This document shows positions 1,281-59,690 of a DNA stretch of 64,000 bases, in pieces. Source of the DNA: Ligula intestinalis (lineage: Eukaryota > Platyhelminthes > Cestoda > Diphyllobothriidea > Diphyllobothriidae); NCBI GenBank assembly GCA_036362985.1, contig JAYGXS010000007.1, forward strand, positions 11,727,590 through 11,791,589, written 5' to 3'. The position numbers and the translations under genes are program-made. Within the stretch, counting starts at the first letter, position 1; every line of letters begins with the position of its first letter. The notes under the pieces are model-generated. The model saw nothing but the letters and a program-made list of their open reading frames with translations. It was not told the DNA's origin and made no database searches.

Positions 1281-1441
1281 CGTGAAAGGGGGGTTAGGAT
1301 CGGGGTCCAAAATCCGATCACTGTTGGGAAAAACTGGTACCCGAGTGAGGTAATAAGCTGCCGGCTAATACAAGTGAACATCCGTGTCCCAGGAAGCAAT
1401 TGAGAAGAAGAAGACTTAAACGCTGGGAAAATATGTTTATT

Positions 1442-1485
1442 TGCCTGACGTTTCGATATCCTTCGCAGATTCGTCATCAGAGACA
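1442..1485 (-). ncRNA. hammerhead-ribozyme-like motif, family 1
   Basis: On the minus strand the order is stem I strand UGUCU, core CUGAUGA, an extra C, an imperfect stem II, GAA, the palindrome ACGU, cleavage-site C, then AGGCA pairing with UGUCU (five pairs, one of them G-U). This is the architecture of minimal type I hammerheads known from Penelope-like elements. Stem II (UCUG facing AGGA) is partly decayed, so this copy is probably weak or inactive. Confidence 0.6.
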
Positions 1486-1512
1486 TGAGTAGCAGTACCT
1501 TTCTGCTACTCA

Positions 1513-1556
1513 TGTCTCTGATGACGAGTCCGCGACGGATATCGAAACGCCAGGCG
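1513..1556 (+). ncRNA. hammerhead-ribozyme-like motif, family 1, facing copy
   Basis: Inverted partner of the 1442-1485 motif. It has UGUCU, CUGAUGA, stem II UCCG pairing with CGGA around a CGA loop, then GAAA, then AGGCG, which can pair with UGUCU using G-U pairs. The cleavage triplet reads GCC rather than GUC, so the conserved U is lost here and cleavage would not be expected from this copy. Confidence 0.6.
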
Positions 1557-1604
1557 AAATAACATATTTTCCCAGCAATCGAGTCTTCTTCTTCTCAAGT
1601 TGCA

Positions 1605-1780
1605 GGCTGTTGGATTAACGACTTTTGGTCAGGGTGACTCCGGTGCCGTGACGAGGTCTTTATAGACGCACAGGACCGGTCGGCGTTGCCTGATGGCGGC
1701 CGCAATATTCTGTCTACCAAACGCGCATGATTTATTTAGTTTCTTCCCGTAGCAATGTGAAGGCCGGATGAGAATTTATC
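1605..1780 (+). repeat. direct repeat A, copy 2
   Basis: Second copy of the 1105-1280 repeat, starting in GGCTGTTGGATTAACGACTT and ending in GGCCGGATGAGAATTTATCG. It follows directly on the right end of the palindrome. No coding potential seen. Confidence 0.6.
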
Positions 1781-3924
1781 GAAAACAAACATTAGTTTAC
1801 CAATTTGTCTTCTAAACTTCTTGATGGAAATATTCGAAAAGTTTTGTTTAACGTTTGATTAATGTACGCCAACACTCAAAAACCAAACTCTTGCAGATAA
1901 AATCAAATAAATGCCAACAGTATTAAATGCCCGTAAGCCATTTCCACACTTCTAACAAAGCACAAAAAGCAATGTTTCTTGATGCGTAGATTAAGTTCTC
2001 CTGATTGTGAATTTACGAATCAATGGACTCCTCCTTTGGGTCCCAGAAATTGTTAAACTGGTTTAATATTTTCGCAATAAAATATAGCGCCATTAATAAA
2101 CACAGAAATTTACGTACGTGACCTACTTGCTTATATTTTATTCAGCGCGACAAATCTAGAAAGGTTTTACTTAATTACAGTTTATAGTTTTTTGGGTACC
2201 ATAATAATCCTGAAAAACATTTAGTGGTGAGAAGGTCATCTACTTTAATTTTTTGACGTCCAGCTTAACGCTCTGAAGTCAGATTATCAAAGTTCGTGGT
2301 GCCTTCCATTAACATGCACAACACATTTATGTTAGATTATTTTTGGTTTTTTAACATTTTATATTTAAGTTCAGCTTTCAAGTTTATTTACAGTTCATTA
2401 TTACGTTTATTATTTTTATTTGAGTTTAAGATTATTTTTCAGTTAAATGAGTTAAGTTAACTTTAATTTGTGCTTTTAGTTCGTTGATTTTAGATTCAGT
2501 TAGGTATTTTGTAATTTATTTATGCCCCAATATTTGGGAAATTGTACATACTAATTAAAGTGCACTTTTCTCTGACATACATGAGATAAGTGGGATAATT
2601 ATTCCTCTTGTTTAAACTTTTATAAGCTTTTTTTATATTTCTACTTTACTTCATTTTTATTGCCCATATTGGATACTCTCTGTTACATCCAGCCCTGTAT
2701 TTCAGAAGGATGGGGCTTTTGAGTTCTGGTTTGGGACCCAAAGCAGTATTCCACCTACGAATGTTGTTTCATTTTTTGAAAAAAGCCGCAAAAGCATGAA
2801 CCGTTGCTCAAACTTTGCGCATCCTACGTCAATGCAACGTTTAATTTCTGCGTTATACTATGGAATTGAGCTGACCGATAAAACTATCAGGATTGGAATT
2901 TAAGTTGGACATTTCTGTTTGTCTCCCAAAAGAGGTACTTGGCATGAAGAGGTGTTATGTGAAATTTTCCTTACAAATCGGTCACTTTCTATATCAGTTC
3001 CGCTGTCAAAAATCAAGCCAAATCTCTGATCTGCGACCAATTGGTTGTCTGCATTGACTATGTTAACTGGATCGACGAATCCATCTGTTAAGGACACAAC
3101 CTATATTGTCGTTAGGGCACAGTATATGTAATGCTGATTTGAGGCTTACTGCCTGGGAAAGTAAATTCTCAAAGTCAAAGAGTTTCACCTGCATGGTCAA
3201 AGCTTTTGCTGTTTAACTTGAGCACAAAACATTAATTCGAGGTTTAAAATGCCCGCAGGTAAGATTTTGCCTTTTCGCACATACTTCTTGGGTGAAAAAG
3301 TGACATGTTTCCATTTCAGTGCAAGTAAATTCTTCGATGTGATTGGACGTTGATAAAATAATATTGTCACATCAGGTCTCACATCAATAGAAGGATGACT
3401 GTGTCTAGAGCAAAAATAAGTATAAGAACCCTTACAGATATTTTGAGCATGACTATGCACACATGCAAACCATACGCGCTCCCATTTTGAAATAATTATT
3501 GTCTATTTTGGATTTATTTTACGTATGTGAAGGATTGATTAGCACAATGCATCAAAAATAAATTATCATCCTTAGCATTTTTGTGTTCTTAATGGCCCCT
3601 GATGCGCGTTAGTAAGAATTCATATCAAAAATTTGAACGAAGAGTAGGCGGAGAAAATTGCTTTTAAAATGCTCCGAACATTTTTATTTAAAAGTGTCCG
3701 GTTGCTGTGAGAAAGATTATTTTGAACATTTGCCGGTTAAAAAGGTGGTTAAAAGGTCCCCATTTAGTTCAAACATGCGCCTACCACCATCTTACATGAG
3801 ACAGAGAGCTGAGCCAAAATGGAAACCAGAAATGTTCTTTGTGCGAGTTTATTGCATTACCAGGTCGAATACAAAATGGTATTGACGTGGAAGTTAACTA
3901 TATAAACCATGAAATATTTGCCTG
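1781..3924. other. unassigned AT-rich stretch with one short shared repeat
   Basis: No convincing ORF or RNA gene. The only item with a partner is 2221-2292, listed separately. Two short minus-strand frames near 2.9-3.4 kb have no recognisable domain. Confidence 0.4.
2221..2292 (+). repeat. short dispersed repeat, copy 1
   Basis: The string around GTCATCTACTTTAATTTT and CAGCTTAACGCTCTGAAGTC has a diverged match at 54787-54855 on the same strand. The match is too short and diverged to assign to an element class. Confidence 0.4.
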
Positions 3925-4045
3925 TAGCACCCCAATCTGCGCCTGTCTTACACTTTCCTACGATCACTTATGCTTGAGGATTCTCGACAGCATCCAAAAT
4001 GTCAGTAAAATAAAAATCTTGTGCCAGTGATTGCATCTTCTTTGA
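3925..4045 (+). mobile_element. PLE-A 3' terminus with HHR-like hairpin (family 3)
   Basis: Matches the terminus downstream of the PLE-A GIY-YIG domain at 36.7 kb (minus strand). Features in order are a CCCCAATCTGCGC block, GAGGATTCTCGACAGCATCC (HHR stem II region, about 3976-3995), AAAATGTCAG, and a tail ending in CCAGTGATTGCATCTTC. GGAUUC can still pair partly with GCAUCC. The CUGANGA strand is degenerate here (GCUUGA), so this is a ribozyme relic. No PLE ORF lies beside it. Confidence 0.65.
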
Positions 4046-13339: not shown

Positions 13340-13460
13340 ATTTTCCTGACCCCTATCTGCGCATGGCTCTTACTATCCCATGGTTACCTATAATTAAGGA
13401 TTCTCGACAGAATCGGAAACGTCTTGTTACAGCGATCACATCTTCTTCTTCTGGGCTGAT
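13340..13460 (+). mobile_element. PLE-A 3' terminus with HHR-like hairpin (family 3)
   Basis: Copy of the same terminus as at 3.9 kb: CCTATCTGCGCATGGC, GGTTACCTATAATTAA, stem II GGAUUC (13398) with GAAUCG, then GAAACGUC, then a tail ending in CATCTTCTTCTTC. GAAAC and GUC are intact. The CUGANGA strand has decayed to AUAAUUAA. No coding part is attached. Confidence 0.65.
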
Positions 13461-15827: not shown

Positions 15828-16087
15828 GAACAAAGGTGCTCATCCGATCTATCTGGTAAGGGCACATACTTGTCCCGGAAGTGCCTTGAGGCTCGTACTT
15901 GAGCGATATCAGGCTTGTCGCTTAGCGACCTCAGAATATGATGGAGTGATCTGACAAAGACAAGGGAGACCGGAATGGCCATTTCTGGCTTGTTAGCCGT
16001 CATCAGCCAGTCAAGTACGAGCCTCAAGGCACTTCCGGGACAAGTTTGTGCCCTTACCAGATAGATCGGATGAGCACCTTTGTTCCA
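15826..16087. repeat. 77-bp inverted repeat enclosing a hammerhead motif
   Basis: Arms 15826-15902 and 16011-16087 are inverted copies that I read as differing at a single position. Between them are 108 bp that hold, on the minus strand, a SINE tail with an HHR (15968-16012). High arm identity suggests recent origin or repair-based homogenisation. Transcribed RNA would make a 77-bp stem closing on the ribozyme. The arm sequence is not found elsewhere in the window. Confidence 0.85.
15968..16012 (-). ncRNA. hammerhead-ribozyme-like motif in SINE tail
   Basis: Best-preserved SINE motif. Minus strand order: stem I GACUGG, core CUGAUGA, an extra C, stem II GGCU with AACA loop and AGCC, an opposing A, GAA, the palindromic stem III AUGGCCAU, cleavage-site U, then CCGGUC. 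GACUGG pairs with CCGGUC over six positions (one G-U). All three helices and both core strands are present. The C and A at the base of stem II do not form the usual G-C, which could lower activity. The family comparison is to the schistosome Sm-alpha SINE-like repeats and PLE hammerheads. Confidence 0.75.
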
Positions 16088-16103: not shown

Positions 16104-16280
16104 AACTGACAAAGCAACGAGCCCGTGGCGCCGAGGTAGGGTGGTAAACCCAATGACCAAAGGTCAAGGGTTCGAATCTCGGGGGTTCCGACCCCTGAGA
16201 TTGGGTATGACTAGCTGATGACGGCAAACAAGCCAGAAATGGCCATTCCGGTCTCCCTTGTCTTTGTCGGATCCACTCCA
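16104..16280 (+). mobile_element. tRNA-derived SINE with embedded hammerhead motif
   Basis: tRNA-like head with an A-box-like stretch near GTGGCGCCGAGG and a clear B-box GGGTTCGAATCT (16168-16179). It is followed by a GGGTATGAC linker, the HHR at 16209-16253, and the tail GTCTCCCTTGTCTTTGTCGG ending at a TA run. The same order is seen at 19.5 and 62.0 kb. It would be transcribed by RNA polymerase III from the internal promoter and mobilised by another element's reverse transcriptase (family knowledge). The last 65 bp are inverted relative to the minus-strand SINE tail at 15.95-16.01 kb. Confidence 0.75.
16209..16253 (+). ncRNA. hammerhead-ribozyme-like motif in SINE
   Basis: GACUAG, CUGAUGA, C, GGCA-AACA-AGCC, A, GAA, AUGGCCAU, U, CCGGUC. 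One stem I position is mismatched (A against C) and one stem II pair is weakened (A for U). Core strands are intact. Confidence 0.7.
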
Positions 16281-19502: not shown

Positions 19503-19670
19503 TGACAGCGAGCCCGTGACTCAATAGTTCGGGTGTTAGACTTCTTACCGAAAGGTCGCGGGTTCGAGCCTCCGATGGTACACCACCCGGGGTTGTGTAT
19601 GGCTGGCTGATGACGGCTAATACGTAAGAAATGGCCATTCCGGGCTCCCTTGTCCTTGCCGACAGCGTTT
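19503..19670 (+). mobile_element. tRNA-derived SINE with hammerhead motif
   Basis: Head GAGCCCGTGACTCAATAGTT, B-box GCGGGTTCGAGCC, linker GGTTGTGTATGG, HHR at 19601-19645, tail GCTCCCTTGTCCTTGCCG. Same family as 16104-16280 and 62043-62208. Confidence 0.7.
19601..19645 (+). ncRNA. hammerhead-ribozyme-like motif in SINE, decayed stem II
   Basis: GGCUGG, CUGAUGA, C, GGCU, AAUA, CGUA (stem II right strand changed from AGCC), GAA, AUGGCCAU, U, CCGGGC. Core and stem III are intact. Stem II is broken and stem I has one internal mismatch, so it is probably inactive. Confidence 0.6.
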
Positions 19671-20399: not shown

Positions 20400-20620
20400 C
20401 TCGCAAAAGGCATTTTCAGGAAGTCAAGTCAGGTGAACGAACGTTTTCGATTAATTCATCATCAGGCAAATACAATAATATAAAGGGAGAGTAGAGTCAG
20501 CAAACGTTTAAGCAACCAATCAGCGGTTATTAGGGGGGAGGGCGTGTTGAGAATCAAAGGGCAGTGGGAAGGAGGAACGGGTCATACACTAAGTTCATGT
20601 CACTCAATCGTCTCGTCGCC
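20400..20620 (-). mobile_element. PLE-type terminus with HHR-like motif (family 5)
   Basis: About 200 bp similar on the same strand to 47600-47830. Shared features are GTCAAGT near the right end of the minus reading, CGAAAACGUUCGUU, CUGAUGAUGAA and an upstream CCAATCA..GTTTA region. A GTGACATGAACTTAG block upstream (minus sense) also matches the 32.8-33.0 kb copy. No ORF is attached. Confidence 0.6.
20431..20470 (-). ncRNA. hammerhead-ribozyme-like motif, family 5
   Basis: Minus strand: CUGAUGA, a short stem II region UGAAUUAAUC, GAA, stem III AACG-UU-CGUU, cleavage-site C, then ACCUG. Stem III forms a four-pair hairpin. Stem II is very short and stem I pairs only weakly, so confidence as a functional ribozyme is low. 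Confidence 0.5.
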
Positions 20621-20904
20621 GCTAACTCTACCCTCACTTTATATGATTGTATTTGCTTGATAATCAATTGATTGAAAAAGCGTTTTGTCTACAACCACAA
20701 AAGTTTGCTCTGCCGAAGAAAGGTTTCAAGCAGAAGCGGAATGCCTCTTTAAATTATTCTCCAAAAATGGATACTCACGTAAGTTTGTGTATCGATGTAA
20801 CAGTAGTCCAAGCAAAACGGTATTTTAAATAATAAAACCACCCGGGCACCAAAACATGGCAAACCCTCCCATACGTAAAAAATGCATCTCAGCCTGTCGA
20901 AAGA

Positions 20905-21186: not shown

Positions 21187-21310
21187 ATACCCCACCTGCG
21201 CATGTTTCAGACTGTTCTTCGATAACCTATGATTGAGGATCCCCGAGGGAAGCCGAAATGTCAGGAAAATAAAGTCCTTGTTCCAGTGATCGCATCTTCT
21301 TCTTCTTAAC
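21187..21310 (+). mobile_element. PLE-A terminus with HHR-like hairpin, upstream of a PLE-A endonuclease scrap
   Basis: CCCACCTGCGCATGTTTCAG, AACCTATGATTGA, a hairpin GGAUCCC..GGGAAGCC, GAAAUGUC, AGG, and a tail ending in GATCGCATCTTCTTCTTC. It lies 50 bp upstream of the GIY-YIG fragment 21361-21735 on the same strand. PLEs often have a copy of their terminal region in front (pseudo-LTR), which fits this order. Confidence 0.65.
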
Positions 21311-21735: not shown

Positions 21736-22745
21736 ACGCGCACAGCCAGTCATGTTAGGAGGAAAAAATGCACACAACATGTACTAGCACAGACATCGTG
21801 CTAATACTCAGCTGTTCCGCTACACACCCTGTAGTCTGGTGGTGAACTTGGAGCCAGCCTCAATATTATATAATTATTTCGTTCCCAAAGATACACAGAT
21901 ATATTCAACCAGGAATGGTCCCACACCGATCCAACTGGATTTCCAAAGTAAACAAACTACGTGTGGGTGGCTAAGTGACTACCTGCTAGGCCGAAATTGC
22001 AGACGGATTACAGCGTTTGGGGGTAACTTAATACGGAAGTGTTTCTGGCTTATTAGCCTTCATCAGCCAAGCATAACCCTGACCGCTAGCTAGGTCGGAC
22101 AAAACAACCATGCGCACGCACAAGTGGCGCCGATTGTCCGCCACTGTGTTCTACCAGATGGAACCACAGCAGACGCGTCTTCGACCGCGTTTCCACCCGC
22201 CTTCACGGCGACCAAGGTCTGCTACACCAAACCTCCCTACGGTGGATCTATCTGCCCTCCTCTACATCTCTGTTTTTGACGACGGAGCATTCCCACCCGA
22301 CCACGCTGCTCCAACGTGCCCTCCTCCACGCTGCCAGGATTGAGACCCACCCGGCGGGGCTCCTGCTCTGACGAGGGCTAATAGCCAGCCAGCCAGCCAG
22401 CAGATGGGACATCAGCACTTCATTGAACCGAAGTCTATCGATGCCTCGCCATCTGCCATTCTTTGTCACTGCAGATAGAGTATATGATTACATAGGCAGA
22501 AAAACATTTCCGACAAAGACAATTCAGACTGGGGTTATACCATTTTACCTATGCACTTATCATAATGCCAGCTTGATGGTTTCCGAAAGAAACCTTTTCT
22601 AATCCATGTCACTTTTGAATTATCTTTAAAAACGGTATTTGCGGGTTCCTTTTCTTATTAATTTCAAAATTTCTTGCCCAGAGTTTTATTTTCCTCCATA
22701 TCTTTGACCTTTGCGCATTTTAAGAACAATTTTTTTTCTCTTCAG
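21736..22745. other. unassigned stretch containing one minus-strand HHR scrap
   Basis: Apart from the HHR at 22031-22072, only a short GCCA microsatellite near 22382-22402 and unrecognised frames. Confidence 0.4.
22031..22072 (-). ncRNA. hammerhead-ribozyme-like motif, SINE type
   Basis: Minus strand: GCUUGG, CUGAUGA, A, GGCU-AAUA-AGCC, A, GAA, ACACU, U, CCGU. Stem II is perfect and the core is intact. Stem III has lost its palindrome (two bases shorter) and stem I keeps three or four pairs. No B-box is visible upstream, so the SINE head is lost or highly diverged. Confidence 0.6.
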
Positions 22746-32759: not shown

Positions 32760-32960
32760 CCGTTTAAGGCCCCCCAGATTCCCACGGATGACTTGCAAGG
32801 AAGATATACACGCTACTGCAAAGGCAGTACTAGTATTCACCTGAGCTTTCCCTCTCACTCAGGAGGTCATCATCAGGGGGGGTGGGGACAAAGCAATAGC
32901 AACTGAGAAGGGGAGGGGTGAATGTGAGGGCTATGTTCACGTCATCTCACGGCGCGCGTC
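32760..32960 (-). mobile_element. PLE-type terminus with HHR-like motif (family 5 relative)
   Basis: Upstream on the minus strand, GATGACGTGAACATAGCC resembles the region before the family-5 motif at 20.4 kb. The motif is followed by AGGTGAATACTAGTACTGCC. No coding part. Confidence 0.55.
32838..32882 (-). ncRNA. hammerhead-ribozyme-like motif with AGCU stem III
   Basis: Minus strand: CUGAUGA, a UGA insertion, stem II CCUC (loop CUGAGUGA) GAGG, GAA, palindrome AGCU, cleavage-site C, then AGGUG, which can pair with a CACC upstream across a C-run bulge. Stem II is perfect. The change of stem III from ACGU to AGCU keeps self-complementarity, which supports the model. Confidence 0.6.
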
Positions 32961-33844: not shown

Positions 33845-35189
33845 TCTATCTCAAAAATGACAAGAGTAGATCAATGGCCAAATGACGCAGGTACCGGTAC
33901 CGCTTTCGAAGACCGTGATTCATCGGGTAGCATTCAATGTGCACAAAACTGCCCGAAATGCATTGCGGCAGCTCACAGTTATAAGGTAACAGCGATTCAC
34001 AGTGTGGAGATATAAATCCCGTGCATCATCTCCAGAAGAGAAAAAATAAGAGGGAGCAATTTCACAAAACGGAATATATTTTGACTGAAGTTTCAAAAAC
34101 ACACTCATTCCCATCGTCAGAGTACCGTGCATGCTCTTCCGTAGGCCTTAAGTAAAATCGTCTTGCCGCCAGCCTCGTGTTATACCCGTGCTCGCTGCAC
34201 GTGCGTTCACCTGCCTGGTGGACGCTGGTTTGCTCTGACGTTTTGAAACCGACCAGTGGTGGATCCGCGTCCCCTTTGTTCCTTGCGCCACTATCGTGAT
34301 AGACGCTGCGCCACTTTACTCGCCACCCTTTTCCTAGCCAGGTGGGGGATCGTTCAGTTGTTGGTGTTCGCTTGGAGCGCTGTCGGCTTCACGGGCGCCT
34401 CCGAGGGAAAGGGTTTCGGAGGCGACGGCGCGACTCCAACTGGTGGACTGAGAGTCAGGCTGTTGTATATGGGTTTTTAAATTGGCCTCCATGTCATTCC
34501 CACGCATTAAGCTCCGAGCTAGTTTTATAGCACCCTTTTTAGCAAAACGAGCTCAAAAATACGAGTTCCAGGTGAGCTCGCGTTTGCGCTCTTGAAGCTT
34601 GAAAAATCTAATTTCATTTTTTAGCCGGACAAGGATTACCTCCTTTCATGCAAAAGCCACCTATTTTTCAAAACGCAGTTAAATATTACTTTTGGAAGAC
34701 TGTTTAGTAATATATGTATATAAATATAGAAAGCGGGCCTAAAAAATATTCTGGTACAAAAAATAAAAAATAAGCTTTCTTAGCCGCTTTTTCAGAATTC
34801 CCGGCTACCCGAACGCAGCAAATTGGAGTTCATGGACGGTTCTGTTAGCCCGTAGGGCCTTGGCGCATCAACTTCCTTATCATTGCGTCGTATGTCTGAA
34901 AGGAGGAAATTAGTAAATTTAGACTTTTATAGGGAAACGTGACGCAACAACAAATGACAAGGTTAAGTGTATAAGTTTACTCACATACGTAAAGGCCATT
35001 GCCAACCCAGCTGGTTGCAACAGTTGAAATACCACCTCAAAGGTTCCTATTATTCGAGGAAGTACCCTCGACAATTCAGTTCACTGCCCCTTTGGCAGCC
35101 AGAATACGACGCGTTTGCTCTCCTGAAACAGTGGAAGTAGTGTTGCAGTAGCTACAAAACACACTGCGCAGCAAAGAGAGATTAATTCA
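33845..35189. other. unassigned, GC-rich at 34.14-34.48 kb
   Basis: The frame 33920-34132 minus and overlapping plus frames 34256-34530 are unrecognised. The GC-rich patch could be a promoter for a minus-strand gene that would include the 33.6-33.8 kb exon candidate, but there is no direct support. Confidence 0.3.
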
Positions 35190-35919: not shown

Positions 35920-36010
35920 TTTTAATACCTGCAATTTTATTGGCCTGTTGACGAATTGCTGAAAATACGTGTTTGCCAGCATGGCTTTTAATCGTAAAAT
36001 TGAGATTTTT
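35920..36010 (+). mobile_element. PLE-B terminus (family 4 HHR-like)
   Basis: TGCAATTTTATTGGCC, HHR motif, TTTTAATCGTAAAATT hairpin-like string, GAGATTTTTGCA. Same order as 44.99-45.07 kb downstream of another PLE-B endonuclease, which links this terminus to PLE-B. Confidence 0.7.
35940..35979 (+). ncRNA. hammerhead-ribozyme-like motif, family 4
   Basis: UUGGC, CUGUUGA (core with one change), a nine-base stem II region, GAA, AAUACGUGUU (decayed palindrome), cleavage-site U, GCCAG. UUGGC pairs with GCCAG over five positions. Stem II is minimal. Confidence 0.55.
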
Positions 36011-36609: not shown

Positions 36610-36867
36610 TTTTTAAAAGAAAAGGATGCAATCACTGGAACAAGAGTTTTATTTGTCTGACGTTTCGGATTCCCTCGGGAATCTTTAATCGTGGGCGATG
36701 GCAACACAGTCTTGGTAATGCGCAGATAGGGTTGCCTATCTACTTGCCTTTTGTCATTCTGCTGTGGTTGATGGCGCTCACTGAGTTTGGCTTCGAGGTA
36801 ACTATAGCTGACGTCTAACTCGATATGCCTGGTAATGCATGCCTAGTCTTAGTGCATTACTTCCAGG
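36610..36867 (-). mobile_element. PLE-A 3' UTR and terminus with HHR-like hairpin (family 3)
   Basis: Directly follows the PLE-A endonuclease on the minus strand: CAACCCTATCTGCGCATTAC, ACGATTAAAGATTC, hairpin GAUUCC with GGAAUC, GAAACGUC, AGACAAATAAAA, TTGTTCCAGTGATTGCATCC. The motif is 36655-36695. This is the copy that ties family 3 termini to PLE-A. Stem II is a perfect six-pair helix. The CUGANGA strand has decayed to ACGAUUAA. Confidence 0.75.
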
Positions 36868-38140
36868 AATTAACGGCCTTTTCTATTTGAATAACTGCCA
36901 ACAATCCGCGTGTTCTCCCATGCGAATTTGTGGCCAGTTTCCAGTGTCTGCATGGTCACCTTGGATAAATGGTTTCGTCTTCTGACCGCTGATGGATGTT
37001 GGTGTAGGCGGATTGAGGTTTTTCCCAGTGTGGTCACAGTAAACTTCATGACAACTGAAAAACGGGATCTTGTAGACAACCCTTTTTCTTTTAAGATAGC
37101 CAACCACGTCCTAAGGGTGTACAAGCTGTGATCGGAAGGTGGTTGCGAGTTGGTGTGACACTTGTGTCTGGTGTTTTTTTTAGTTTTCTTTCGACAAGCT
37201 TACATAATTTTTTTTCCAACTGGGAGAGTTCGCCAGGTTAGTGTTTGCGGTAGTTTGTATGTCGTGCCATTCGAAATGCCTTTTTCTTTTCCTTTGGATG
37301 CTTGCCGTTTTATGCCATGAAGCACAAAATTGCGTAGAAACCATTTTTAGAGAATAATTTCAAAAAGTTTTTTATTCCTTCTTCGTAACCTTTGTCATCA
37401 AGGCAGTGTGTTTTAGCTCGGTTGATGAGGCTGTAGACAGAACTTTTTTTGTTAGAGACTAAATGGTTGCTCATAAAATGTAGACTGACTTCCAAATATG
37501 CTTCTTTACGGTAAACAGATGTACGAAGTGTTCCATTGGTATTTCCATGTACAAGGGTATCTAGGAATGAGATTTTCCCGTCAAACTCCGTTTGGAGTGC
37601 AAATGCAATTCCTGTGAATGTGGAATTGAGCTTCTTGTGGATAAGGTCCAAATCATTCTTCCTGATGATGACAAATTTATCATCTATAGAGCGTAGCCAG
37701 AATTTGGGTTTGGCTGTGGAGAGGACTATTGTTTCACTTTTTTGCATTTTAGCTTCGGCCGGAAAGCCAGACATGGGTGAACCCATGTGAGCTCCTTGTA
37801 GTTGTTGGTAGTGTTAAGCGAAGAAGGAAAGTTGGTTTCAAGACAAAGTAAGTGTTGGAGTAAAGCCTCTGCAGGTACATTAATGTTGTAGACCTGGCGT
37901 AGTTTTTATCGGTGCAGCGTCTCGCTAAATCCAGAGGGATTGAGGTGAGGAGTGAGACCATCTCGAATGAAACCATGATTTCGTCAGTTAAGACTTTGAT
38001 TCTTTTTAGTTTTTCTAGAAACGCTTTTGAATTACCAATGTAGTACTCAGAGTTCTTTTTAAGTGGGTTTAGTTGGTAAAACAGCCACTTAGAGACCCTG
38101 TAGTCGGGTGTACCGATTAAAGAAACTATCAGTCACAGTT
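36868..38140 (-). mobile_element. PLE-A reverse transcriptase plus GIY-YIG, pseudogene
   Basis: Most complete PLE here. From 38137 the minus strand reads LIVSLIGTPDYRVSKWLFYQ, then MVSFEMVSLLTSIPLDLA (RT motif A region, first catalytic Asp replaced by Glu in SFEMVS). After a frameshift near 37790 it reads QLQGAHMGSPMSGFPAEA, KFWLRSIDDKFVIIRK (motif C, IDD kept), GKISFLDTLVHGNTNGTLRT, SVYRKEA and NRAKTHCLDD (thumb) to a stop at 37310. The GIY-YIG part (36868-37124) lies in two frames: RVVYKIPFFSCHEVYCDHTG, then SAVRRRNHLSKVTMQTLETG and HKFAWENTRIVGS. PLEs prime at chromosome breaks or ends and use this nuclease for insertion (family knowledge). The 5' end is truncated. At least two frameshifts make it inactive. 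Confidence 0.85.
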
Positions 38141-44640: not shown

Positions 44641-45070
44641 CGAGCTCCAAGCTTAGCATGGCCAACGGCCACCTAGCTACCGGTATTTTTTCCCAGCCTC
44701 CTCTTTTTCCCTTTCCGCCTCTCCCAAATTCCCGCGTAATAAGCCGCTTGTTACAACCCCAACCCCCTCCCCTATCCCCTGGACTAATTTGCTTGTAACT
44801 TTGAACATCATTTACCTTTTAAACTTTACCTTCCTCCCATATAAATTTAATGGCCTGATTAGAATTTATTGCAAGTATACGTATGCTCACAAATTGCTCT
44901 TCTGCTTTCTGTGATGGGAATTTTCGCAATGTTAAAACGATTATATAAACACTGCAATTAACTGACCATTTTTATTCCCTATGTCATGTACCAGCCTGAT
45001 GATGAATAACCGAAAACAATTGTTTGCCAATATGACTTTTCAATCGTAAAATGGGAATTTTCGCAAAATC
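44641..45070 (+). mobile_element. PLE-B 3' UTR and terminus
   Basis: Pyrimidine-rich stretch (44700-44780), then CTCCCATATAAATTTAATGG, GTATGCTCACAAATTGCTCT, TGTGATGGGAATTTTCGCAA, then the family-4 HHR and a second AATGGGAATTTTCGCAA. The repeat of that string suggests internal tandem structure. Confidence 0.65.
44991..45030 (+). ncRNA. hammerhead-ribozyme-like motif, family 4
   Basis: CCAGC, CUGAUGA, UGAAUAACC, GAA, perfect palindrome AACAAUUGUU (45015-45024), cleavage-site U, GCCAA. The 35.94 kb copy has UUGGC in place of CCAGC, which would pair fully with GCCAA. Stem II is at most two or three pairs, so it may need dimer context. Confidence 0.6.
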
Positions 45071-46048: not shown

Positions 46049-46375
46049 TCAGTACTGAATTGAGAAGAAGATGACTCGATCACTGGGACAATACTTTGAT
46101 TCGCCTGATATTTCGAGATCCGTCACGGATTCGTCATCAGACACTTTGTCAAAAAGCAGCAACAGAAACGGAAATTCATTGCACTTTCTGCGATAACATA
46201 TTAATATCGAGACACCTGTGCAGGAATCGAATCTGCGCATAAGTTGTCGACTCTTGTAGGGCAAATTTTTCCCACCGTCAAGCCGATGGGAGCGAATTGT
46301 GCCCAAAGAGATTGTCGATAAAAAAGGGAATATGCAAGTTCCAGGAAGCAGTTCAGTAGAAGACGGTGCGACCAC
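46049..46375 (-). mobile_element. PLE terminus, family 1, long copy
   Basis: Minus strand CTTCCTGGAACTTGCATATT, a 200-bp body including TCTGTTGCTGCTTTTTGACA, HHR 46102-46145, CAGTGATCGAGTCATCTTCT. A 108-codon frame runs through it, but it crosses the HHR and is not conserved in other copies, so it is not a gene. Confidence 0.65.
46102..46145 (-). ncRNA. hammerhead-ribozyme-like motif, family 1
   Basis: GUGU, CUGAUGA, C, GA, AUCCG-UGA-CGGAU, CUC, GAAA, UAUC, AGGCG. The stem II inner helix has five perfect pairs. Stem III palindrome ACGU has become AUAU, which is still self-complementary. Confidence 0.65.
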
Positions 46376-46379
46376 TGGA

Positions 46380-46480
46380 ACAAGAATGTTTTTTTCCCGA
46401 CATTTTAGATTCTGTCAAGAATCTTTAATCATAGGTTACCGAAGGATAGTGTGACACATGTGCAGATAGGGGTGATACAT
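46380..46480 (-). mobile_element. PLE-A type terminus (family 3)
   Basis: Minus strand CACCCCTATCTGCACATGTG, CGGTAACCTATGATTAAAG, hairpin GAUUC with GAAUC, UAAAAUGUC (GAAAC decayed), GGGAAAAAAACATTCTTG. It lies about 40 bp downstream of the PLE-D endonuclease, so it may be an insertion or the natural end of that element. Confidence 0.6.
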
Positions 46481-46489
46481 GCAAGGATT

Positions 46490-47135
46490 ACACGGTATTT
46501 ATAGTTCTTACTATAATTATCAGCTCCCTAAAAAACCACTTGGGATCTTAGTTAGTATGGCTATGAATTGACAATTCGCTTTCGACTCATAAATTGCCGC
46601 GATTACGTTGTCCGTGATGGATGCGGACTTGATAAATGCGCGAAAATTATGCTCGTTGACGTCAGACTTGTTGCTAGGCCAGGCCCTTCTAACGTGACTG
46701 ATCCCCTGGCTGAGGCAATGTTTCAGTAGGCGATATGAGAACGGCAACTCATTGCGCTTGTTGATGGATTGTGGGCCTGAGAACCATGACTCGAGCAGCT
46801 GGCGGCTCACGCGGTTGTCACCTCTTGTGAGCATTACGGCCTGGTTAAACGTGAAAATATGGCTGATTCCCGTTGAGTGAGCTACAACCTGAGAGTGGGC
46901 GTCTTTATTTCTTACCGCCACTGCCTGCTCGGACATTCGCGTCCGAAGTAATCTCCCCGCTTCTCCGACGTAGCTGCTTTGTCCATAACTGCACTAGATC
47001 CGATAAACCACTCCAGCCGTTTCCTGCCGTGGCACTGGGGCCTTGGTTATCCTGATAGTTGATCCTGACCTGTGGGCAACTGCAAATCCAAGAAGGGTGA
47101 GCAGGCGGCTGACTGCTTCTAAAGAGCTCGCCAGG
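46490..47135 (-). mobile_element. PLE-D connector and GIY-YIG endonuclease, one stop
   Basis: Minus strand FLASSLEAVSRLLTLLGFAV, GSTIRITKAPVPRQETAGVV, YRI, stop, CSYGQSSYVGEAGRLLRTRM, AVAVRNKDAHSQVVAHSTGI, SHIFTFNQAVMLTRGDNRVS, RQLLESWFSGPQSINKRNEL. All GIY-YIG landmarks are present: GVVY, YVG, the R of RTRM, E at SWF, and N at SINK. Only one in-frame stop interrupts about 190 codons. It is the best-preserved endonuclease in the window. RT is missing upstream. Confidence 0.85.
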
Positions 47136-47599: not shown

Positions 47600-47830
47600 G
47601 CATGTAAGCAACTTGACTTAAGTCAAGTTGGGCGAACGTACGTTTTCGATTTTTCATCACTAGACTATTAAAGTAATGCAAGGAAGGGTGGAGCGACAAG
47701 CGTTTACGCATCCAATCAACAGTAAACAAGGGGAGAGGGCATGCAGAGATCAATATGTCAGATTCTAGTCATATCAAGGGGTCAGAGAAGGGGGGAAGAT
47801 GGGAGAAGGGTGTATTCACGGAAGTCCAGG
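47600..47830 (-). mobile_element. PLE-type terminus with HHR-like motif (family 5)
   Basis: Partner of 20400-20620. A short perfect hairpin ACTTGACTTAAGTCAAGT (47612-47629) sits at its 3' side in minus sense. Confidence 0.6.
47629..47665 (-). ncRNA. hammerhead-ribozyme-like motif, family 5
   Basis: Minus strand UAGUGAUGAAAAAUC (core decayed from CUGAUGA), GAA, perfect palindrome AACGUACGUU (47635-47644), cleavage-site C, GCCC. The palindrome is conserved better than the core. Confidence 0.5.
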
Positions 47831-49460: not shown

Positions 49461-49492
49461 CATTTTCAATTAAATGGACCATAATTACACTA

Positions 49493-50485: not shown

Positions 50486-51289
50486 TATATAAGGACTTTA
50501 CCACATTTCAGTTTAGCCCGCCAGGATGATGCTCTCGCATGGGCTTAGATAGGCTTAAAAAACAATAGGAAGTTCAAAGGCGTTTGTCTATATTTCCCTT
50601 AATAAATTCAATTGACTTGACTTGTTAGACCAATATAACCTGCCCCACAGGAGCATGTAAAGGCATAGATGCGCATTGCAATAGTCTGCAACGGAAGTCT
50701 ATCTTTGCTTTAAATGCGAAAAAAATGTGGAGTGCTGGAAAGGACTAGTCTTATTTTTGCAGCTGGATATGTGCGCGCGATTGCAGTGTTTAACTGAATA
50801 ACAGCATAAATTTGCCTCACAGCTTGTCATACTACAAGGTTGAGGGGGAAGGTTGTCCCTGTCAGTCGTCGCTGCCTGGCCGTGGGCCGTTGGCTCCTAA
50901 CTCGCTCCATTCCGTCAATGTTTATTTAGGCGGTTGCGAACGTGTGGCGGGTTGGCGTTCACTTGCCCAGCCCAGGCATCGATAATTTGTTTTCCTCTCC
51001 CCAACCGCTCCCCCCCCCCGAAAGTTCGTCATTGTGAGAGCTAGGCTTGATTGCCTCCCCCCCCTCATCCCCCAGCTACCAGTGGATCGTTTCTCTAGCC
51101 GACGGCCTACCAGCCATGCGGGCAGCTCTCTGGCGCACGGACCACTTAACTGTTGTAGTTTTTGGGCTGCCAAGTTCTGTCAAAAACGAGGGCACCGTTT
51201 CGGTTCTATCATCTGACTTACGACAGCTGTCAAGTCAGAGACATCACTATTAAACGGAACTCGCTCGCTGCAGTAATTATTTCGTTGGC
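50486..51289. other. unassigned, GC-rich at 50.86-51.18 kb
   Basis: C-runs near 51010-51070. Overlapping frames without recognisable domain. Nothing else. Confidence 0.35.
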
Positions 51290-51406
51290 TCAGATAAACA
51301 CAGCTGACCTGGTGTCCACTTTCAGAAGTAGAAGATGTGATGGCTTGAGCAAGCAGTTTACATACCTGAAGTTTCGGCTTCTGTCGAGCACCCTTCGTCA
51401 GATGTA
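51290..51406 (-). mobile_element. PLE-A type terminus with intact HHR core strands (family 3)
   Basis: The motif at 51361-51406 reads CUGACGA, AGGGUGC-UCGACA-GAAGCC, GAAAC, UUC, AGGUAUGU, then a GCTCAAGCCATCACATCTTC tail. It is the family-3 copy in which CUGANGA survives, and it shows that the GGATTC hairpins elsewhere are stem II of a hammerhead. Stem II is now imperfect and UUC replaces GUC. Confidence 0.65.
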
Positions 51407-51449
51407 ATCCTAATCGGTGTCCATACCGTCGGTCCTATACTAGCGAGAA

Positions 51450-52404
51450 ACATATAAATAGTAATCAGTAGCATTAGGCACATTGAGTACTGAACCGATT
51501 TATAAGAAGTACTAAGTGTTTGTTAAGAAAAATAAAATTTTCTCGATAATTTCCAGGTGTCCATACCTTTGTTACTAAAAATAAAATTTTCTCGATAATT
51601 TCCAGGTTTTGTGAAGTATAAAACTTAAAGAAACCACTTTCTTTATGTAAAAGAATTCGCCTTTAGTCAAAATATTTTGTATATATGGTAATGAGTTGAT
51701 AACTACTTATTGAATATCGTGGAATAAAGTCTCTCTTCATTTCGCTCGTTTTCGGTTTTTTTCATTGATAGTTGATTAATTGCGCTTCTGTTCAACGTTT
51801 GCATTTAACCTTGGAAAATAAGATATAAGTAAACAGCATTTACCGTAAAAAACGAGCTTTTGGATATTATTTACTATGTAGATGGCTCTGTTGGTCAAAT
51901 TTGGAAATGCTTCAAAACAGCAAACCACATTGCCGAGCATACAACATGTCTCCTGGATACCACGTACATAGTTATTCCTAAGATTGATAAAAAAGTTTTC
52001 ATAATAGGTTACCTCTTTAAAAGTGCCTTTATTGGATATTAAGCTGACGAACTACTGCGTATGTTAACTTTTTTCAAGGTAATTGAGCAGTGAAATTTGA
52101 GATTTTTGAGAATTTCCGTAATTAACCTGAAAAAAACGATTAAATTTGACGGGAGATGAAAGAAAATACCTTCCTCTTCAAAATTGATTATTTTTCGCTT
52201 CAGAAGATTTATTACAAGATCCGTACTAAACGTTCAAATGCAAAAAAAACAGGCCACGTATATGACCATTTTTTGAAATACTTAAAATTCTTCTGTCTGT
52301 CCCGTTTCTAAATAACGCTTGAGCGGAACCTATTGTTTGCAAAAAACTATATTTCTACATGACTTACATTCAAAAAGGCTTTCTATGGGCTGTCTGTGCA
52401 GTTA
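51450..52404 (+). repeat. unclassified long interspersed repeat, copy 2 (left part)
   Basis: Matches 30220-31130 along its length and is interrupted at 52404 by foldback F3. The sequence resumes at 53276. The reading ADELLRMLTFFK corresponds to ADELLRLLNFSK of copy 1 but is full of stops. A short CTAAAAATAAAATTTTCTCG duplication lies near 51.53-51.6 kb. Confidence 0.6.
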
Positions 52405-53273
52405 CAGTAGACGCCTTTGATCGTGCAATATTTCGAGATATGCGAGAGACTAATACTCTTTCGCTAATCGGAATTTACTCCAGTTATGATACTGATTATC
52501 GTGTAGTGTATTTTGAAGTCATTTCAGTAAGGATAGGATGCCGGCTTTTCAACGAGCTCCTTTCTGACTCTTAGCAAAACGTTTATGTTGTTAAACTGAC
52601 TACTTAAGTAGAATGCCTTTTTATCAGTGATTCTGACTGCCTTTATAAATTCAAATATATTTTATGAAAAAAAAACATGCACGAGAAAATTATCTTTTGT
52701 CCTTGTTTGATAGCAAATTACGCATTATTTAAATTTTATCCTCAAAGAAATGGTAGCTTCAGTTTTAAATAAGTTGCTTATTATGATCTTTTTTACGATT
52801 GTTAGGTCTTCATCCATAATTAATCATATCCGGTAATTTAAAAGTGCTGCCTATACTGCATAAAATATATTCCAAATCCATTTCAGCATTTGAGAACTAC
52901 AAGGTGACGTCTTCCTCAAACTGTAGGCAAAACTGTACATTTCCTTAAACAGAATGCACACTGTGCACAGGTTTTAAACCTTGAGTTCGAGTGTAGCATT
53001 CACTCGTTTAGAAAATTGTTCGGCAATTAGGCAACTTTTTTATAAAAGCAGACAGAATTAATTAGAAAAAGGCATACTACTTAAGTAGTCATTTTTTATA
53101 AAAGAAACGTTTTGCTAGGAGCTCGTAAAAAAGCTGGCTTTTTATCCTTACTGAAACGACTTCAGAATACACTACACGATAATCAGTATCATAACTGGAG
53201 TAGATTCCGATTAGCGAAGGAGTATTAGTCTTTCGCACATGTCGAAATATTGCATGATCAGCGGCGTCTACTG
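52405..53273. mobile_element. complete TA-flanked foldback element F3, nested
   Basis: 869 bp, starting CAGTAGACGCC and ending GGCGTCTACTG, with TA immediately outside both ends (52403-52404 and 53274-53275). Arms of about 300 bp. It is inserted within the unclassified repeat (copy 2), whose halves align to uninterrupted copy 1. This confirms both boundaries and the TA target duplication. No transposase ORF. Confidence 0.9.
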
Positions 53274-53275
53274 TA

Positions 53276-56180: not shown

Positions 56181-56699
56181 CTTCCTGGGACTCGCATGTT
56201 CACTTGTACTCGCAGTTTGAACTTTGTATCCTACGCGATCCACCCTGTGCACCACTGCAAGATGTCATAAGGATAACAACCTGCGAGACGAGTGAAAATT
56301 TTTGCGAGAGCTTCCGCACGTCAAAAACGTCTCGGAGGTCGTCGGCCGCCTTCCCGCACCTTTTAGAGTCGCACACCATTAGTTTTCAGGTAATGAGATC
56401 AAGGGACTTACTGCAACACCCGGAGACATCTATCGCATGTTAATGGTGTAGGGAGCAAAGCTCCTACGTCGGGGAAACTGGTCGTTTACCGTCTATTCTG
56501 AGCATCGGAAGGTGGCGCTATCGCCAAACCCGCACGCAGTTGCTTAGCAACGAGCCGACTGCAGTTGTTTTGTCCGAAACTGCATCAGATAATATAGACT
56601 ATTCCGAAAGTGTCTTGTAGCGGCAGTGGGTCCTCTGGTTTCACCATCTGGCACCTGATGGTTGCCTCTGGTATTATGAATGAACACCTCACAGTCGTC
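56181..56699. other. unassigned stretch
   Basis: Continues with CTTCCTGGGACTCGCATGTT, the family-1 tail, then nothing recognised. Confidence 0.4.
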
Positions 56700-57365
56700 A
56701 AAAATCTCACAATTAGGAACGTTTTTAAAACCTAAGGATACCCCTTCTTTAAATATAAAATTTAAATAAGGCGTAAATTGCTACCGAACGAGTACAAGAA
56801 ATATTTTTTCGTTTATTCCTTCCATAAGCTATAGTTGAACTTATAAAGGCAATCAAAATCCATTATAAGAATGCATACTATTTAAGTAGCCATTTTTACT
56901 GAATCTGCCTTTTGTAAGCGATCAGAAAGAACTCCAATCAAAGAGCCGGCATCCGTCAATCTATTAATGCTGCTTAACAGCACGATCCACATCTATGGCA
57001 AAATTATATGATAACTATGCGACCTCTTTCTCAAACTGTAGACAATACGTTGTTTTTTCCTTGAAAATAATTAACACAGCATGTTGTTTGGAAACCTTGA
57101 ATTCAGGTGTAACAGTCTGTAAAATTTCAAAACTGTTCAGTAGTTCAAAAAAACTTTTAAAACCAAACGATACGTTTTATTCAAGGATAAAATTTAAAGA
57201 GTGCAAGAATGTATATTTTCGTGCATGTTTTCTATAAACAGTCGAAATCCATGACAGAAAGTCATACTATTGGAGTGACCCTCTTTAACAGAATGTTCTT
57301 TTTGTAAGTGGTCAGAAAGAATGCCCATAAAAGAATCGGAATCCTATCGTGACTGAAAATAATGG
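56700..57365. mobile_element. two truncated TA-foldback right halves in tandem (F4)
   Basis: 56700-56955 and 56956-57365 each contain the inner arm (TTTTTAAAACC, GCATACTATTTAAGTAGCC or TCATACTATT) and end in GCCGGCATCC or ATCGGAATCC. The centre (CACATCTATGGCAAAATTAT, CTCAAACTGTAGACAATACG) precedes the second. Outer ends with CAGT are missing. Confidence 0.7.
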
Positions 57366-59040
57366 AAATTCGACTGTTTGATAAGCAGTATCGCAACCCT
57401 ATTTAATGGTTTTTTGCGAGTGATTACCAGTTTATTTGCAAATTGCTGTATTTTGCTTGCAGCACTGGCTTTGGGAATCGCACCTGCTGCTAACCGAATG
57501 CACTTCCGCTGTCCGTAAATCCATTGTTTCTTTGAGGCAACCAGCTTTTTACCATTCACTTTTAGCACTGGAGCCTGCCCCCAGGACTTTTACTGGTCGG
57601 TCTGTTAACAGCACCTATCAAAACTAATCCTACCGGTGCAATCTTACAGCTTTAGTCAACGAGCAGCAGACTCCTGGACGAGACGGAGTCATTTGGAATT
57701 CCAGAGACGTGCTCAAGAGCATCATGTCCATCCCCTGTTTTTGACTGGTCGTCTGGATGTCCTAGATGGTCGGGACGGTGTTTGAGCAGAATGTGATCCT
57801 GGATGTTGTCATCGACGAGTTTGCTCAGACGCGGAGGATGCAGTCGAGGATTCTGAATTGCAATCTTTTCGATGGGTGTAAATGGCTACCAGCACAACTT
57901 CTTCAACCGGTGAATGGGAAAAAATGCTGAGCAGCATAATAGTGTGGGATACGAAGTAGTCCTGCTAGATAATAGACGATAAAACGCATCCCAGCGGTTA
58001 TAAACTAGTTGATCATATAAGGCTTGGAGGGCCAGAGTGTGATGGATAATTTAATAAGGTGTAACAGGAGTAGAATAGGAGTCATTGGTTACTGACTCCC
58101 AGACAAGTGCAGTCCAGCTATGAATGGGCCGGAGTCTGGAGGTGCACTCTGGCATGTAGACCACCGGGTCCGGAAGACTACAACCCAACAGTAAATCGCC
58201 GGTTCTGGAAGTGACTGAGCGTAAAATACTCCACACAGTAAGTTTCTTTGTGCACTAGTCTTTGGAAGCGGTTGGCCAGTAAGCCAGACGGAGGATGACC
58301 TTGAACGGGGGTTTTAATATCGTCTCTCACGCATGCGTGGTGAACGTGCAAGACACGACATGTCCTCGCGGCGTCCGAGGAAAGCATTGCTAAGAAATAC
58401 AAGATGGCTATAATGTAATCGACTCCACATTTTGGGGAGTGGTTTCTTACATCGGAGGCCATCGGAACAGCCTTTCCGCATCACTTAGAGTCACGTGCAG
58501 ACCGGAGGTAAACATAAGGCGCCAGATGATGAAATCAGAGGATCCACTGCCAATACAAGAAACTTTCAGAGTCGTCTATAGTACCTGATGCAGCTTCAGA
58601 CAAAAGAGAATTCTTAGGACGTGAATTACCAAACAAGTGGCAGCCGTGCCGAGAAGTGACACCAATTGTCAAATTGCGACTCATTCGATGAAATTCCGGG
58701 TGCACACATTCAGAAAAACTTGGGCAAAATTTCCCACGAGAGGTGATTATTGCGTCAGTGTTCAGTTCCTTGAGTCATGTTTCATGAACCCCCAGTAAGG
58801 ATCAACTAAAATGATTTGCCCGCTCCATATTCGGTGCTGAGACACAGATTTGCCAGTCAAGGAGTGCACAGTGCCGGTAAGCCAGATAACTGAGCAATTA
58901 TCATGCGTTAAGCCAACATGAGGGATGACAGTTCAGCCAACCACGAGCCGCACACCAGCCACAGGAGCGGGCAACCCTCCTCGATGAAGGCGGAGCCCTT
59001 AATCATCATTAGTGGGCATTGGCATATTGACTGTCTCCTA
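57366..59040. other. unassigned stretch
   Basis: A plus reading near 57.65-57.9 kb (LTALVNEQQTPGRDGVIWN) faintly recalls the start of non-LTR RT domains, but the following residues do not continue the match. No other signal. Confidence 0.3.
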
Positions 59041-59200
59041 TAAATGCTGCAACTCCCTGTGCACGAATTAACCTTTTCTGCTACTGTCTCTGATGCTGGA
59101 TCTGCGACGGATTTAGAAACGCCAGGTGAATAAAATTTTTGCCCCAGTTATCACATTTACTTCTCCTGAATTACTTCCTGGGACCCGTGGGTTCGCTTGT
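59040..59200 (+). mobile_element. PLE terminus, family 1
   Basis: GCAACTCCCTGTGCAC, CTTTTCTGCTACTGTCT, HHR, GGTGAATAAAATTTTTGCCC, ACTTCCTGGGACCCGTGG. Shares its leading block with the unit at 59585, 545 bp downstream in the same orientation. Confidence 0.65.
59085..59128 (+). ncRNA. hammerhead-ribozyme-like motif, family 1
   Basis: UGUCU, CUGAUGC, UGGA, UCUG-CGA-CGGA, UUUA, GAAACG, CC, AGGUG. Stem II inner helix has four positions with one G-U. The cleavage triplet GCC lacks U. Stem I UGUCU/AGGUG relies on G-U pairs. Confidence 0.55.
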
Positions 59201-59584
59201 ACTGAAAGGACTAACAGAAAGTCGGTGAAACGCCAGTAGCAGCCGTGTTGGAGGCAAAATGCGCTAAACAACTCAATTACCACTAGGTTTTCGGACATGC
59301 ATTGAAGTAAATGAGGTCAAAATTATGAGCGAGGATACGACGGTTACTTCCGAGGAGATCGATTTTCTGCCGCAGAGGACGGCAGCGCGGGGACGGTGAC
59401 CTGCGCGCGTGGATAAGCTTTAAATCAAAGTAGGCTTGCGTCGCATCCTCCTCACTCGGTCTCTCTCTCTGTTCCATCACCCACCAGCGTCCGGATACCG
59501 GGCCAACAGGTAATTAGCGCAGAAGCGGACAACTATTATCGATGGGACCGGAGCCCTCAGTTGTCAGGAGCTTGGCCACGGCAA
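59201..59584. other. unassigned stretch
   Basis: Between two family-1 units. Nothing recognised. Confidence 0.4.
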
Positions 59585-59690
59585 CTACTGCAACTGCCTG
59601 TGCACAAGCTACCTGGTGTACCTGCTTTTATCTCTGAGGATGTGGGTTCCAGAGGGAGTTCGAAACGTCCGGCTTGTCCCAGCCCTCACC
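59585..59690 (+). mobile_element. PLE terminus, family 1 variant
   Basis: GCAACTGCCTGTGCAC and TGCTTTTATCT precede the motif. The tail (GGCTTGTCCCAGCCCTCACC) differs from family 1. Confidence 0.55.
59629..59675 (+). ncRNA. hammerhead-ribozyme-like motif, variant
   Basis: UAUCU, CUGAGGA (valid CUGANGA with G), UGU linker, GGG-UUCC-AGA-GGGA with bulged G then UUC, GAA, ACGU, cleavage-site C, CGGC. Both core strands, stem III palindrome and GUC are intact. Stem I pairing is weak. Among the PLE-type motifs it has the best core. Confidence 0.65.

Follow-up and report, generated by a model that had tools for sequence, protein, structure and literature searches.

Hammerhead-type motifs with changing palindromic stems III in a 64 kb window of the Ligula intestinalis genome: a case for dimeric pairing

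The DNA studied here, called the window throughout, is a repeat-rich stretch of 64 kilobases (kb; 41.7% GC) from the cestode Ligula intestinalis (contig JAYGXS010000007.1). It contains real hammerhead-type ribozyme motifs at a number above chance. Profile searches assigned them to three groups: the tails of Penelope-like-looking elements (20 copies), a short interspersed element (SINE; 5 copies with the motif), and a further short element, group 3 (8 copies). Among the homologous copies of group 3 in this one genome, the self-complementarity of stem III was kept and its sequence was not, which is a direct prediction of a dimer model. With a probability of about 0.66, we consider the window to hold decayed Penelope-like-looking elements and two short elements, the SINE and group 3, with minimal type I hammerheads that served the dimeric processing of retroelement RNA. 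Two transcripts of an active parent would share one self-complementary stem III; one copy would bring the CUGANGA strand, stem II, and GAA, and the other the cleavage base and the 3' strand of stem I. Cleavage of the paired copies after H17 would release unit-length RNA. Since self-complementarity alone would matter, stem III could drift from palindrome to palindrome. Should the kept self-complementarity hold across the whole genome, such drift would show how the processing of related selfish RNAs stays separate. Most cores are decayed, so the copies present today would be fossils of once active elements. We infer cleavage, dimerization in cells, and a role in the retroelement cycle from the sequence.

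The pattern CTGANGA…GAAA matched 21 times in the window, compared to a mean of 5.07 in shuffled sequence (largest 12). A strict motif, made up of CUGANGA…GAA, a Watson-Crick palindrome of 4-14 nucleotides (nt) with A first and T last, and H, was found at 13 sites, whereas 100 dinucleotide shuffles averaged 0.38 (largest 3). Requiring at least 3 contiguous stem I pairs as well left 4 sites (15.98, 19.6, 38.95, and 1.45 kb), against 0.01 in shuffles. A preliminary description of this DNA had stated that the bases after the cleavage site can pair upstream of CUGANGA; this is true of these 4 of the 13 palindrome sites, but the contiguous pairs numbered 0 at 32.8 and 59.6 kb and 2 at 45.0 kb. A scored scan that tolerated a single core mismatch gave 7 sites at a score of at least 24, where 60 shuffles averaged 0.5. 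The low scores of that scan were useless (50 sites at 18 against 23.5 in shuffles). Ten of the 13 strict sites fall into the three homologous groups, and those at 5.04, 38.95, and 62.41 kb lie outside them. Copies within a group are not independent, so the excess reflects repeated elements and not repeated inventions.

Palindromes directly after GAA were found where they had been described: ACGU at 1448-1451 (-) and 59665-59668 (+), AGCU at 32844-32847 (-), AUGGCCAU at 15975-15982 (-), 16239-16246 (+), and 19631-19638 (+), AACAAUUGUU at 45015-45024 (+), and AACGUACGUU at 47635-47644 (-). They had been read as several independent palindromes with strong internal covariation. The palindromes do differ, but their independence was overstated, as there are only three groups. 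The 32.8 and 59.6 kb sites, previously separate families, both join the Penelope-like tail group by nhmmer (E 1.2e-11 and 1.2e-9, respectively). Also taken for two families, the sites at 45.0 and 47.6 kb are homologous to each other and are united in group 3 with six more copies. At 47.6 kb, the supposed CUGANGA is CTAGTGA in the aligned place, and this site is not among the 13. A self-complementary stem III with paired changes was seen in group 3 only; covariation is marginal in the tail group, and the SINE offers one palindrome.

Group 3 comprises eight copies, named here by their positions in kb, taken from 17 profile rows; a partial match at 1245-1282 was left out of the stem III counts. 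Four of them (1.76, 45.70, 20.65, and 44.84) had E values of 0.016 to 1.8 and were picked partly by eye after the palindromes had been noticed, and membership was therefore re-tested with stem III masked. The masked leave-one-out profile recovered six of the eight copies at E 1.4e-5 or better. Of the other two, 47.67 was found at E 0.43 and 20.65 was not recovered at E up to 1; both were included on the strength of blastn. Copies 44.84 and 45.70 are closely related. A second common stretch (like GATGGGAATTTTCGCAA) lies about 25 nt downstream of stem III in four copies (44913-44931, 45048-45066, 45766-45783, and 1821-1841).

The five group 3 copies with a 10-mer stem III paired at 24 of 25 cells in the right register, whereas no other offset between -25 and +29 gave more than 16. 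Three of the five pairs carried changes on both sides, and none did so in slid controls. The observed pairing was reached by 9 of 500 shuffles, with other measures giving 9 to 79 of 500. With G-U allowed, four of the five 10-mers were fully self-complementary, as opposed to 20 of 2521 GAA sites in the window. The permutation keeps column make-up and not relatedness, so its p-values are guides: 37 of 40 outer cells paired in the eight copies (p 4e-5), 32/35 without 20.65 (p 9e-4), 27/30 in the six copies recovered by the masked profile (p 0.006; Watson-Crick 24/30, p 0.0014), and 23/25 in these six minus 45.70, the close kin of 44.84 (p 0.008). The four apical bases were a Watson-Crick palindrome in 4 of the 8 copies (P 0.001) and in 5 of 8 with G-U (P 0.002). 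A monomer hairpin would not need an apical palindrome, which makes this an argument for dimers. Taken as sequence comparison, these data support dimeric pairing as the probable use of stem III in group 3.

The SINE group has five copies with the motif; stem III is AUGGCCAU in three, AUGGCCAC in one, and lost in one. Stem I has 6 base pairs (bp) in copies 15.98 and 62.15. Stem II differs between these two and yet folds in both (GGCU/AGCC and GAUU/AGUC), with a C-A mismatch at 10.1-11.1 in 15.98. When two strands of 15.98 were folded without constraint, the optimum contained 20 of the 20 expected stem I and stem III pairs, plus an A14-U17 pair, and the predicted energy was -37.9 compared to -26.4 for two monomers. 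This predicted dimer is a classical double hammerhead in which stem I of each unit comes from both strands. A repeated body and a head, which looks A-/B-box-like by eye and is presumably that of a tRNA-derived SINE, are present at 16.2, 19.6, and 62.1 kb. ARAGORN found no tRNA in the window. A further SINE copy at 61380-61560 lacks the hammerhead stretch of about 35 nt between GACTGG and GTCTCC and could be a deletion or an older form.

For the tail group, nhmmer gave 29 rows, of which 20 copies were examined. The nine left out were 13350, which starts inside stem III, 11859, and seven with E of at least 0.66; 53.88 (E 0.31) and 34.12 (E 0.47) were kept despite their weak match. The group takes in the sites at 1.4-1.5, 34.1, 46.1, 51.4, 32.8, and 59.6 kb. 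The first four of these were taken as families 1-3 of the preliminary description, which were said to show ACGU. ACGT is indeed the stem III of 5 of the 20 copies, but the other 15 vary (ATGT 3, ATAT 2, ACGC 2, ACTT 2, AGCT 2, and ACGG, AAGT, ACCT, and ACCG 1 each). Stem III was fully Watson-Crick self-complementary in 9 of 20 copies, compared to 98 of 945 GAAA sites in the window. The inner pair was Watson-Crick in 12/20 (permutation p 0.031) and paired in 15/20 with G-U (p 0.022). Stem III covariation in this group is weak.

Counts that depend on the core used 18 of the 20 tail copies, since 55.85 and 56.13 have no alignable core. The group splits into type A, with CUGANGA or a near match, and type B, in which A3/U8 replaces C3/G8. 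Of six type B copies, all have A3 and five have U8. A 3-8 Watson-Crick pair was kept in 17 of 18 copies of both types; since the A3-U8 change probably happened once, in an ancestor, the permutation p of 4e-5 is not to be taken at face value. A U3-A8 pair has been reported in natural hammerheads (section 8 of Perreault et al., PMC3088659). Three of the six type B copies lie beside Penelope-like-looking stretches (36.69, 46.43, and 21.23). G12 is lost in three of the six, and type B may for this reason simply be dead. In type A, stem I paired at 36 of 48 cells, and stem II closes one base further in, with 10.2-11.1 pairs in 9 of 12 copies. The base between CUGANGA and the first stem II pair is unpartnered and mostly a pyrimidine in 9 of 12 type A copies and in group 3 copies 20.45, 44.99, and 35.94, where the 10.1-11.1 pair is absent; 1.76 has this pair and not the unpartnered base. 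Same-strand neighbors in the tail group are found at 46.43/46.14 and 56.0/55.85/55.55 kb, and no complete element is in the window. The Penelope-like label is inferred from nearby frames that look the part: by eye, those at 37310-38132 resemble a Penelope-like reverse transcriptase and that at 46520-46993 a Penelope-like GIY-YIG endonuclease. A comparison of the two with public viral contigs gave no confirmed relative. A single-sequence structure model of the GIY-YIG-like frame had a pLDDT (predicted local distance difference test) of 42 and was unusable.

Several results weigh against dimeric hammerheads in the window. An Rfam scan found no hammerhead match at the gathering threshold or at E up to 10. 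The type I core of CUGANGA and GAA is present in the best copies only, with both parts intact in 14 of 33 (tail group 8/20, SINE 4/5, group 3 2/8). The decayed frames at 37310-38132 and 46520-46993 had no significant match in Pfam, NCBIfam, or PDB. In the tail group, 9 of 12 type A copies lack a standard partner for 10.1, and the inner stem III pair is marginal when type A is taken alone (8/12; p 0.03 Watson-Crick, 0.09 with G-U) or with type B (10/18, p 0.10; with G-U 13/18, p 0.06). The pair 10.1-11.1 is highly conserved in hammerheads, and active natural exceptions have been published (PMC3088659, section 8). In group 3, the four strongest copies alone paired at 19 of 20 cells with p 0.057 (0.029 Watson-Crick), and a profile of these four gave 45.70 at E 0.018, 44.84 at E 0.19, 20.65 at E 6.4, and did not find 1.76.

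The folds of two strands also speak largely against the dimers. Among 19 copies folded (8/20 tail, 4/5 SINE, 6/8 group 3, and 38.95), all expected pairs appeared only in SINE 15.98. The other three SINE copies gave 7/18, 8/18, and 12/18 expected pairs, 7 of the 8 Penelope-like copies gave none, and group 3 ranged from 0/10 to 14/16, never with the whole fold. Dimer energy gain was rejected as evidence for SINE 15.98, SINE 62.15, and Penelope-like 1.48, where it was ordinary (52, 177, and 268 of 300 shuffles as low); it was below most shuffles for group 3 copies 35.94, 44.84, and 47.67 (25, 6, and 9 of 300). The preliminary description had placed the dimers in tandem transcripts. The palindromic apical bases in 4 of 8 group 3 copies favor dimers. 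Against dimers within a single transcript, the palindromes of the same-strand pair 44.84/44.99, 141 bp apart, do not pair together (duplex -0.1 kcal/mol), so each of these copies would need a partner of its own kind.

Other explanations address different groups and are non-exclusive, and their odds need not sum to one. The tail-group motifs could be plain hairpins, in which the CUGAYG strand pairs with CGUCAG in a long imperfect hairpin and both palindrome and core are by-products of an inverted repeat. Copies 1.48 and 46.14 are predicted to take this long hairpin as their optimal monomer fold, the extra C after CUGAUGA would pair with G12 in it, and in the 12 type A copies 78 of 96 hairpin cells pair, whereas the three hammerhead stems (I, II, and III) pair at 75 of 108. 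However, most of its pairs are nearly invariant and hence uninformative. The hairpin pair of N7 with stem III base 3 has no covariation (type A 6/12 with G-U, p 0.86, and 1/12 Watson-Crick, p 0.96; types A and B 11/18, p 0.89), unlike the inner stem III pair of the hammerhead, which covaries slightly. Plain hairpins, which also leave the SINE and group 3 unexplained, seem unlikely to us. Monomeric hammerheads are a comparably unlikely account of group 3 and the SINE, where a tetraloop-capped stem III would suffice and a dimer would be unneeded. The preliminary description held that a monomer could hardly close the helix; this is so for ACGU, but palindromes of 8-14 nt could form a stem III of 2-5 bp with a tetraloop. 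Passages in PMC7229834 and PMC7761336 report that most invertebrate retrozyme ribozymes work as monomers. Against this stand the four bases of the cap, which a monomer leaves unpaired and which are self-complementary in half of the group 3 copies, and the estimated energies, which a hairpin stem III lowered in 0 of the 5 longer-palindrome copies with both values (SINE 15.98, -10.0 to -7.7, and 62.15, -6.9 to -3.5; group 3 44.99, +2.5 to +3.6, 35.94, -2.6 to +0.5, and 45.70, -2.4 to -2.2).

Self-complementarity might also be maintained at the DNA level with no role in RNA, as a target or protein-binding site or through hairpin processing of element ends. The blastn homology of copy 20.65 ends at stem III, and inverted copies are common in the window, both of which would fit. 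The palindrome nevertheless lies where a hammerhead needs it, between GAA and H plus the stem I strand, and it lacks the conserved sequence expected of a binding site; we find this explanation highly improbable. Chance and shared descent, with inherited palindromes that drift in the absence of selection, are very unlikely. The copies are few and related, four were added partly by eye, and the four strongest alone gave the borderline value above. Five differing 10-mers with all but one cell paired, changes on both sides of three pairs that the slid controls lacked, and the p of 0.006 for the six profile-recovered copies argue the other way.

An extension of the dimeric reading is that stem III acts as a private dimerization code, by which each retroelement lineage would come to have a palindrome of its own, so that its ribozyme would pair preferentially within the lineage and be protected from others; as a second strand of this idea, type B would have swapped the catalytic C3-G8 for A3-U8. 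We think this quite unlikely. For seven group 3 palindromes, self duplexes lay between -6.4 and -17.7 kcal/mol, and the palindrome of 44.99 gave only -0.1 to -0.9 kcal/mol with the six others. Against such a code, some cross duplexes were strong (47.67/45.70, -8.1; 35.94/44.84, -8.1; and 20.45/47.67, -6.9), so only some lineages could have a private code.

The features of the three groups and the candidate frames are listed in Table 1.

Table 1. Positions of hammerhead-type copies and candidate protein frames in the window.
Feature	Position	Strand	Basis
Tail, type A, stem III ACGU, stem I 5 bp	1448..1480	-	nhmmer
Tail, type A, stem III ACGC (outer pair broken), head-to-head with 1.45 kb copy	1518..1551	+	
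Tail, type A, stem III AUAU	46107..46140	-	
Tail, type A, stem III AGCU, poor stem I	32843..32876	-	
Tail, type A, stem III AGCU	666..699	+	
Tail, type A, core CUGAGGA, stem III ACGU, poor stem I	59634..59669	+	
Tail, type A, stem III ACUU (inner pair broken)	51368..51401	-	
Tail, type A, stem III ACUU (inner pair broken)	34087..34120	-	nhmmer E 0.47, weak
Tail, type B, stem III ACGU, downstream of decayed Penelope-like-looking frames	36616..36690	-	
Tail, type B, stem III AUGU, downstream of frame 46520-46993	46353..46431	-	
Tail, type B, stem III AUGU, upstream of stretch homologous to 36876-37147	21230..21307	+	
Tail, type B, stem III AUGU	3975..4042	+	
Tail, type B, A3/U8-type core	13393-13452		
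Tail, type B, A3/U8-type core	43795-43863		
Decayed frames, candidate Penelope-like reverse transcriptase	37310..38132	-	by eye
Frame, candidate GIY-YIG endonuclease of Penelope-like element	46520..46993	-	by eye
SINE 15.98, stem I 6 bp, stem II GGCU/AGCC, stem III AUGGCCAU	15975..16006	-	
SINE hammerhead, stem III AUGGCCAU	16215..16246	+	
SINE hammerhead, stem III AUGGCCAU, stem II broken	19607..19638	+	
SINE 62.15, core AUGAUGA, stem I 6 bp, stem II GAUU/AGUC, stem III AUGGCCAC	62147..62178	+	
SINE copy, core and stem II intact, stem III lost	22042..22066	-	
Group 3 20.45, stem III AACGUUCGUU (4/5 pairs)	20435..20465	-	
Group 3 47.67, stem III AACGUACGUU, core mutated	47634..47663	-	
Group 3 44.99, stem III AACAAUUGUU	44996..45025	+	
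Group 3 35.94, stem III AAUACGUGUU (one G-U), core CUGUUGA	35945..35974	+	
Group 3 45.70, 12-nt stem III AGUACGUAUGCU (5/6 pairs), core CUGAUAA	45710..45741	+	
Group 3 44.84, 14-nt stem III AGUAUACGUAUGCU (7/7 pairs, one G-U), core and GAA decayed	44855..44888	+	
Group 3 1.76, core CGGATGA, decayed 14-nt stem III (5/7 pairs)	1765..1798	+	
Group 3 20.65, homologous only up to stem III; AAAGCGUUUU (one G-U), next base G	20657..20687	+	

Two hammerhead-like stretches of similar layout, 36459-36489 and 38953-38983, were joined to none of the three groups by profile. The repeats in the window include self-inverted ones at 38890-39081 and, on a large scale, at 25596-26615, and related repeats are clustered in both orientations at 49495-53275. 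Among same-group neighbors within 300 bp at hammerhead-like sites, five pairs were head-to-head (1466/1532, 13340/13405, 15994/16227, 20455/20665, and 55996/56110), two were tandem, and none were tail-to-tail. With 36 hand-compiled sites, fragments included, strand shuffles gave this head-to-head bias a p of 0.013 (300 bp), 0.044 (600), and 0.062 (1000). In public viral contigs, the SINE and group 3 patterns each had 0 matches. The Penelope-like pattern had 10 stretches there, which were set aside as chance-like (one sequence in seven variants, a second in two, and a single further one).

Minimal type I hammerheads of Penelope-like elements were reportedly described by Cervera and de la Peña in 2014, and dimeric cleavage of Penelope-linked hammerhead variants is said to have been reported by Lünse, Weinberg, and Breaker in 2017. 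The copies in the window share with these hammerheads the small type I core, the very short stem III, and the proposal of dimeric cleavage, and some likewise lie beside Penelope-like-looking frames. They differ in that most type A copies have an unpartnered base before stem II, type B has A3/U8, and most are decayed. The preliminary description had likened its dimers to the minimal hammerheads of Penelope-like elements, and passages in PMC7761336 and PMC6466107 agree. A Penelope-like hammerhead is described in part of PMC11167929 as cleaving only when its own protein is added, with partial rescue by C3G/G8C.

SINEs with hammerheads are not new, as Sm-alpha and Sj-alpha of schistosomes precede the one described here. 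According to passages in PMC2770079, they are SINE-like, carry a hammerhead, and are tRNA-derived in S. mansoni; the likeness drawn here is one of description, and the SINE of the window differs in its stem III, an 8-nt palindrome. In a literature search on hammerhead and SINE-like terms, with subscription papers mostly outside its reach, titles beyond Sm-alpha/Sj-alpha suggested no hammerhead SINE. Animal retrozymes, as outlined in sections of PMC7229834, are likewise short non-coding elements with type I hammerheads; in contrast to them, a tandem-repeat search of the window reported no tandem array of such units. In one axolotl retrozyme type, a one-pair stem III carries a palindromic tetraloop, and dimeric constructs cleave better (Cervera and de la Peña 2020, PMC7229834, in the passage on this type).

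Dimeric hammerheads with a palindromic stem III are thus an already published design, with precedents in parts of PMC3088659, PMC7229834, PMC7761336, PMC11167929, and PMC6466107. The Figure S8 legend of Perreault et al. (2011, PMC3088659) gives palindromic stems III or loops III in several hammerheads (Aedes and others) together with a dimer model, which is the idea of the preliminary description. There, as far as that legend goes, the palindromes belong to several ribozymes, whereas here the palindrome changes among homologous copies within 64 kb. What the window adds to the published design is covariation among homologues.

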